NCBI RefSeq assembly: GCF_000257665.1
Contig: NZ_AJKR01000004.1
Coordinates: 1-64,000, forward strand
DNA length: 64,000 nt
Origin: Candidatus Aquiluna sp. IMCC13023
GTDB taxonomy: Bacteria > Actinomycetota > Actinomycetes > Actinomycetales > Microbacteriaceae
Direction: 5' to 3'
Shown here: one piece after another, positions 1 to 1,112 of the stretch
How the letters are laid out: every line of letters starts with the position of its first letter
Numbering within the stretch: position 1 is the stretch's first letter
Program-made: the position numbers and the translations under genes
Notes under the pieces: generated by a model
The model's input: the letters and a program-made list of their open reading frames with translations, nothing else
Told to the model about the DNA's origin: nothing
Databases searched by the model: none

Positions 1-1
1 T

Positions 2-241
2 GCTTCGGAGGCTGCGGATGCCGTAGCTGCTGAGGCTGCGCAAGTTCAGCAGGAGGCGGTGGCCGCTGAGGCGGAAGAGGTGAGAGTTTACGGCCCTAAG
101 TCCGTAATGACCTTCGCACCGACCCCTAATTTACTTGACATTGAAATAACTCCAGTTCTCAAGAATGTTGTGCTACAAATCGCTGTAGTGCCCAAAGGAC
201 CGATAGCGGGTGGGGATGCGTCGCGTGCGGCGCAGTACTAA
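2..241 (+). CDS. C-terminal part of an unrecognised Ala/Glu-rich protein (5' end outside window)
   Basis: The frame is open from the first bases of the window and ends in TAA at 239-241, so only about 79 residues of the C-terminus are seen. The first third is dominated by Ala, Glu, Val and Gln and looks like a flexible or helical low-complexity stretch. The rest is a more normal mix containing VRVYGPKSVMTF and ending in RAAQY. There is no C-terminal sorting signal (no LPXTG-like motif, hydrophobic segment and basic tail). It ends two bases before the GTG of the sortase-like gene, so the two are probably one transcription unit. I do not recognise the family. Confidence 0.6.
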   Translation, partial: ASEAADAVAAEAAQVQQEAVAAEAEEVRVYGPKSVMTFAPTPNLLDIEITPVLKNVVLQIAVVPKGPIAGGDASRAAQY

Positions 242-243
242 TA

Positions 244-873
244 GTGACGAATTTCACTCAGTATCGCCGGTCGGGACTCCTAAATAATTTCATTACAGGC
301 GCGAGATTGTGCTTTGGGTATGTAGGGCACGGTTTCATGGCAGCTGTGCTCGCACTGGTCATGATTTCAAGCACTGCACCTGCGAATGCAGATCAAGATC
401 ACGTAGCCGAACTTGAAATGCTCACTGTTTCAGTAAGCAGGGTTCAACTCTCGGGGGCACTTGTAAGCATCGGATTGGATGAATCCGGAACACTGGCACC
501 GCCAGTGGATCCGCATGTTGCCGGGTGGTATGTCGGCGGCTCAAAACCCAGCGGCGTGGGCAGAACAGTAATCGTCGGTGCCGTTGACTTCAAGGGCGAG
601 ACCGGTGTGTTTTGGGAGCTCAGGCAGGTAGTTGTCGGCGACCTGATTGTGATACGAAGTAAATCAGACTCAGTTCACTCGATTGCGAACTTTTTAGTCA
701 CAGAGGTGACGCTCTATCGAAAATCTGACTTTCCAACAGCACGCCTATATGCAAATCTTGCCTACGAGGGTGTTGCCCTGGTCACTGATGGTGGCCCCAA
801 TGCAAGTAAAACTGCCTACCTTGGAAACCTGGTGGTTTATGCCCAGCTGCAATCGCGAGTCCTGGTTTACTAA
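244..873 (+). CDS. Secreted sortase-fold protein (class E/F-like) lacking the catalytic His, Cys and Arg
   Basis: The 209-residue product has a hydrophobic export segment at about residues 27-49 ending in APANA, followed by a domain that follows the class E/F sortase pattern: VSRVQLSGALVSIGLDESG, then VAGWYVGGSKP, then VIVGAVDF, then VFWELRQVVVGDLIVI, then ALVTDGGP, then YLGNLVVYA. In active relatives these blocks read VGHVD, TCGG and YRDNVVV. Here the His is Ala113, the Cys is Asp182 and the Arg is Leu193, so a transpeptidase reaction is not expected. The frame is intact and the fold-defining residues are kept, which argues for a protein with another role, such as binding a peptide, rather than a decayed gene. 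The start is GTG at 244, two bases after the upstream stop; an ATG at 337, just before the hydrophobic segment, is an alternative. The family call is by motif pattern only. Confidence 0.75.
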   Translation: MTNFTQYRRSGLLNNFITGARLCFGYVGHGFMAAVLALVMISSTAPANADQDHVAELEMLTVSVSRVQLSGALVSIGLDESGTLAPPVDPHVAGWYVGGSKPSGVGRTVIVGAVDFKGETGVFWELRQVVVGDLIVIRSKSDSVHSIANFLVTEVTLYRKSDFPTARLYANLAYEGVALVTDGGPNASKTAYLGNLVVYAQLQSRVLVY

Positions 874-1112
874 CGCTTCACCGCATTAATTTTGCTGATC
901 AATCGCACCTTCGACATTTTTTGTCTCTAAGCCGGCTCCAGCATCCGCAATTGCATTTCGGGCAGCGGGGCAACCGCTTTCCGCCAACGGGAGTGCTGCG
1001 CCAACGGAAGACTCCAAGAGACCAGGAGGATTTAGAGGAATTACCCTCTGGCCGAATCAGCTAGTTACCAGAAGAACCACGGCAAGGCACGCACCCTAGT
1101 TAGAGTAGTGAA
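874..1112. other. Intergenic region without a clear gene
   Basis: These 239 bases carry no convincing coding frame. A small inverted repeat AGAGG (1034-1038) / CCTCT (1045-1049) with a six-base loop is visible, and the last bases hold the promoter of the next gene. No terminator with a T tract follows the sortase-like gene. Confidence 0.5.
1101..1106 (+). promoter_or_regulatory. -10 box (TAGAGT), leaderless promoter of yajQ
   Basis: TAGAGT ends six bases before the ATG at 1113, the spacing seen at many other genes in this window. Transcription would begin at or next to the start codon. Confidence 0.55.

Follow-up and report, generated by a model that had tools for sequence, protein, structure and literature searches.

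Close to the start of the 64-kb stretch of DNA analyzed here (the window, G000:C4:1–64000, the first bases of contig C4 of the 1.36-Mb genome of Candidatus Aquiluna sp. IMCC13023, G000), an intact gene at positions 244–873 encodes a predicted class F-like sortase that lacks the catalytic histidine and cysteine and a near-invariant arginine of its relatives, and is kept under purifying selection directly behind the gene for a DUF3494 ice-binding-type protein. We propose that a class F sortase has here been turned into a non-catalytic partner, which would bind the C-terminal tail of the ice-binding-type protein and tether or assemble it, a reading to which we assign a probability of roughly 45%. 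The features concerned are as follows, with L codes used below for individual loci and G codes for genomes.

244–873, + strand: predicted catalytically dead class F-like sortase, 209 amino acids (frame reading, profile, orthologues, structure model and alignment)
580–582, + strand: codon of Ala113, the position of His in 110/110 class F relatives (alignment)
775–777, + strand: codon of Ala178, the position of the missing arginine (Arg in 109/110 class F relatives; alignment)
787–789, + strand: codon of Asp182, the position of Cys in 110/110 class F relatives (alignment)
2–241, + strand: 3′ end of the partner gene (end of the Ala-rich stalk and conserved tail), cut by the contig start
77–238, + strand: conserved C-terminal tail of the ice-binding-type protein, 53 residues
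239–246, + strand: gene junction, with the TAA stop at 239–241, 2 nucleotides, and the GTG start at 244–246

The frame at 244–873 runs unbroken for 209 amino acids from a GTG start; an in-frame ATG at codon 32 may be an alternative start, and the hydrophobic export-type segment remains with either. A predicted export signal occupies approximately residues 1–49, where a hydrophobic stretch (best 19-residue hydropathy 1.85–1.98) is followed by a conserved P-A-N-A, and residues 50–209 form the mature sortase-fold domain. By profile, the closest family is the class F sortases: the NCBIfam model NF033748 matched with an E-value of 1.9e-28 and 99.1 bits, missing its curated cut-off of 166 bits, and PF04203 matched with an E-value of 8.1e-6 and 26 bits, just under its cut-off of 26.6. 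An AlphaFold model of residues 50–209 (mean predicted local distance difference test score (pLDDT), 82.5) had solved sortases as its listed matches, and on this model the mature part has the sortase beta-barrel fold. The prediction treated the dead sortase as a single chain and used an alignment of 25 rows, 22 of them relatives with catalytic residues; an earlier prediction from four rows (pLDDT 52) was set aside as too poor. Sequence searches of the PDB with the dead sortase gave no sortase among the matches listed, and a plasmid search gave only matches below 60% identity (30 records). The initial annotation, made from the letters of the DNA, had described an intact frame for a class E/F-like sortase with the blocks VGAVD (Ala113), VTDGG (Asp182) and YLGN (Leu193) and had proposed structure prediction as a check; these letters read as claimed, and both the class F profile and the modeled fold of residues 50–209 bear out the relationship.

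The catalytic positions were read from an alignment with 110 class F relatives, whose activity is assumed from their residues: 88 Microbacteriaceae loci (28 loci and 60 further places fetched in the family search), one Actinoplanes locus (L006) and 21 sequences from IMG/VR contigs. Class F sortases are encoded on 25 IMG/VR contigs (L161–L185), four of which were excluded from the alignment. The catalytic His of the GHVD motif (110/110 relatives) is Ala113 in the dead sortase, the catalytic Cys following L-I-T (110/110) is Asp182, and the near-invariant Arg four residues ahead of that Cys (109/110) is Ala178. All three are lost, as the initial annotation had stated, although it had placed the arginine at Leu193. 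We rejected Leu193 because its column varies among the class F relatives (V 29, D 21, L 12, T 12, A 12, E 10, R 5 and P 3 being commonest). By analogy, the class F arginine ahead of the Cys may be the functional counterpart of the arginine on strand 8 of class E enzymes. Of 23 columns that are at least 95% invariant in class F, the dead sortase and its orthologues keep 16; residues retained from class F are W95, G106, F123, G132, K160, P164, T181, N195 and A200.

A class-level search matched 127 of 394 genomes, and the ten best matches (L195–L204), read by eye, all keep His, Arg and Cys (10/10). At the family level the 88 fetched loci were inspected, and further dead class F sortases may be present among the remaining class- and family-level matches. 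L055, a candidate for a second class F sortase without Cys, was rejected, as its frame reads TCDG and had been misaligned.

Orthologues are present in an uncultured Microbacteriaceae metagenome-assembled genome (L004; 84% identity to the dead sortase, 81% in the mature part) and in a genus-mate (G013; 70% identity, 84% in the mature part). All three genes are intact and keep Ala113, Ala178 and Asp182, and the pairwise ratios of nonsynonymous to synonymous substitution rates (dN/dS) for the mature part were 0.17, 0.25 and 0.13. The comparison of homologues suggested in the initial annotation thus found Ala113 and Asp182 conserved in both orthologues and the Leu193 column variable among the class F relatives, and the maintained non-catalytic role that it had postulated is supported by the shared losses, the low dN/dS and the retained fold.

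The dead sortase gene lies 2–9 nucleotides behind the partner gene in the three genomes, and in the window the short junction suggests translational coupling. In L004 the partner gene is unbroken (304–2793) and encodes 829 amino acids: what appears to be a signal peptide is followed by three DUF3494 (PF11999) stretches, an Ala-rich stretch and the conserved tail, which ends in RAAQY. The front part of the G000 partner is found at the start of contig C1, with three DUF3494 domains at G000:C1:292–2115 on the minus strand, and that of the G013 partner at the start of contig C5. The assemblies of G000 and G013 thus break within the Ala-rich repeat. Because the L004 gene is unbroken, we infer that the separated pieces, including the G000 front part and the 3′ end in the window, belong to one gene. 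The partner is classed as a DUF3494 ice-binding-type protein by its PF11999 domains, and may bind ice. The coupled Ala/Glu-rich protein without a sorting signal that the initial annotation had noted is the end of this triple DUF3494 protein.

Tail and dead sortase are conserved under varying heads: the partner heads of G000 are 94% identical to those of L004 and 40% identical to those of G013, and the tails of G000 and G013 are 93% identical. The tail matches two of 22 genus genomes (G000 and G013); among 398 family genomes there were 65 matches at E ≤ 1, with a best E-value of 0.04 past G000 and G013, so that by sequence comparison a convincing tail is found only in these two. G000 has two other DUF3494 genes (C3:20029–20559 and C2:137138–137575), for which no class F-like neighbor was detected. 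In another genome, G017, two DUF3494 domains and a long Gly-Ser repeat are combined in one protein (L031:6204–7805 and L038:3–1250); its gene reaches a contig end and seems to resume at a contig start, immediately upstream of LacI and YajQ and close to the chromosomal position of the G000 pair.

Within the genus, the dead sortase matches three of 22 genomes, G000, G013 and G014, the last with a fragment only (L003:1501–1650). This fragment comprises 50 C-terminal residues, which again read VTDGG and YLGN and so include the Asp; its location is unrelated, close to ABC transporter genes. In G019, one contig has the 5′ end of the partner gene at its start, and the YajQ contig opens with the last codons of the dead sortase gene (RVLLY, stop), from which we infer that this genome carries the gene, unassembled. 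In G018, whose YajQ is 98% identical, neither the dead sortase gene nor the tail was found, and other sequence precedes YajQ. Across window positions 1–880, nucleotide identity to L004 and L002 in overlapping 90-base stretches is mosaic: G000 is 92–100% like L004 up to approximately base 400 and thereafter mostly nearer G013 (up to 95%), and beyond approximately base 880 L004 ceases to match the window. This mosaic points to recombination inside the dead sortase gene and perhaps to movement of the pair between sites.

An active sortase elsewhere in the genome, which the initial annotation had suggested looking for, was not detected in G000. The class F profile returned the dead sortase gene as its sole match in G000, and four motif-keeping sortases of the genus Aquiluna, used as queries, matched six of 22 genomes, with G000, G013 and G019 not among them. 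A search of G000 with PF04203 returned no match and missed even the dead sortase gene, so it is the class F profile and the genus search that support the lack of other sortases in G000. The Gram-positive anchor profile (PF00746) had no match over cut-off in G000. In two other genomes, a long surface-type repeat protein carries, within a single open frame, a C-terminal sortase domain whose His and Cys motifs are intact (L011:1–1824 in G021 and L012:1–1419 in G009).

In the proposed mechanism, the sequence and the model indicate a kept fold from which His, Arg and Cys are all gone, and sortase-type transpeptidation is therefore not expected. Purifying selection and the position 2–9 nucleotides behind the partner gene in three genomes form the second step. 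The retained groove would then bind the partner tail without cleaving it, and the resulting non-covalent complex would assemble the ice-binding heads or hold them on the cell surface, substituting for the covalent LPXTG anchoring apparently used in a relative (G005), which has a DUF3494 protein of its own. More tentatively, and with the odds somewhat against it, the stripped sortase fold might be a dedicated receptor for the tail of an exchangeable ice-binding-type adhesin, a form of non-covalent surface display in which heads could be shown and swapped without an active sortase.

Several observations weigh against a tail-binding partner. We examined upstream frames, chosen mechanically, at 88 class F loci (87 from Microbacteriaceae and L006), and in 49 of them (L006, L041–L123) letters like P-x-G-G-[VI]-x-T-G-x-G occur near the C-terminus, often preceding a hydrophobic stretch and Arg residues; these letters are a candidate class F sorting signal. 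The tail shows no such motif above controls in a score matrix (G000 scores 1.49, L004 and G013 score −1.0; of 56 control open reading frames, two exceed 1.49, the best with 2.17, and 7% of shuffles reach 1.49). When the tail was compared by profile with the partners of active class F sortases, the probabilities were 0.1 and 0.2%. On these scores we rejected the tail as a worn class F sorting signal. The order of partner then sortase has parallels in class F loci, yet there is no support for the tail having descended from a sorting signal; of the initially suggested surface adaptor for a sorting-type peptide, the adaptor still fits and the sorting-type peptide does not. In addition, tail and dead sortase adjoin on the DNA, and their shared conservation may therefore stem from linkage. 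The N-terminus of the dead sortase may be either a cleaved signal or a membrane anchor, and tethering would require that one member of the pair remain attached to the cell. Seven of the 23 near-invariant columns are changed, and change is therefore not confined to the catalytic residues but includes G103S, P107R and the milder replacements L177V and I180V, with I180V present in two of the three orthologues. Compared with the mature part, the signal region has been changing faster (dN/dS 0.25–0.49). The neighboring gene YajQ, taken as a control, has a dN/dS of ~0.016 between G000 and G013 and is under much stronger selection, so that the dead sortase gene, at 0.13–0.25, is constrained but far less so. 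Lastly, the distribution is narrow, and G014 retains only its fragment.

Among the alternatives, the one that survives best, while unlikely, is that the protein helps the ice-binding-type protein to be exported or to fold, as a chaperone active in secretion and outside the final surface complex. Its gene directly behind that of the client, its conservation together with the client's tail and its signal-like N-terminus with P-A-N-A would all suit such a helper, but the other DUF3494 genes of G000 (C3:20029 and C2:137138) are without such a neighbor, the class F profile matching only the dead sortase, and nothing indicates a folding need. We consider it rather unlikely that the dead sortase binds the wall, a polysaccharide or another surface protein and is merely co-transcribed with the ice-binding gene: the retained sortase fold and the lack of a motif link between the tail and class F substrates would allow this, but the tail was found in no genome that lacks the dead sortase, though the heads differ. 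A relic, that is, a dead gene being lost and kept through linkage, would fit the narrow distribution with its 50-residue fragment, the constraint weaker than that of YajQ and the long branch on which the three dead sortases fall in a tree (length 2.75, which makes their placement unreliable); three intact frames, the dN/dS of 0.13–0.25 and the 16 of 23 near-invariant residues kept make it quite improbable. That the protein is still an enzyme with other chemistry, for example via Asp182, is highly improbable: the invariance of this residue in the three orthologues and the Asp also present in the G014 fragment would speak for it, but none of the three conserved catalytic-type residues is left and we know of no Asp-using sortase.

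Sortases are known as covalent anchoring enzymes. A dedicated receptor for the tail, if confirmed, would be the first functional sortase pseudoenzyme, as far as our literature searches show: these found no description of a pseudosortase or of a sortase tied to a DUF3494 ice-binding protein, and no sortase paper with the phrase 'lacks the catalytic cysteine', with most subscription papers outside their coverage. A sortase fold that is maintained without its catalytic residues and tied to one surface protein would mean that the fold can act as a peptide-holding device, and could explain how a small-genome bacterium in which no active sortase was detected displays an ice-binding-type adhesin. The system is small, consisting of two proteins, one 53-residue tail and one groove.

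Compared with known systems, the dead sortase shares with class F sortases (NF033748) its closest profile, nine conserved residues and a gene behind that of a secreted-type partner, as at many of the class F loci examined; it differs in the absent Cys, His and near-invariant Arg, in scoring under the family cut-off and in a partner with no recognizable sorting signal. The first class F sortase studied was reportedly that of Propionibacterium acnes. According to one account, what class F sortases do physiologically is still unknown (PMC13251363). For class E, SrtE1 of Streptomyces coelicolor is described as using His251, Cys320 and Arg329, with the Arg on strand 8 (PMC5148588); in the dead sortase this His and Cys have no counterpart, and a conserved Arg is absent. 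The three DUF3494 domains of the partner are shared with DUF3494 ice-binding proteins and ice adhesins, triple-domain forms of which are described in Actinobacteria in PMC9957290, where the word 'sortase' is absent. In G005 (L036:4612–8581) a sortase-fold gene likewise adjoins a DUF3494 ice-binding-type gene, but GHR and TTC motifs are retained in that sortase, and its partner has LPNTG, with a hydrophobic segment and a basic tail, at the C-terminus. The DUF3494 frame of G005 is split into two overlapping pieces (190 and 929 amino acids), perhaps by a frameshift. SipA, an inactive signal-peptidase-like protein of pilus assembly, offers a precedent for the reuse of an enzyme fold in surface protein assembly, although its fold and pathway differ.
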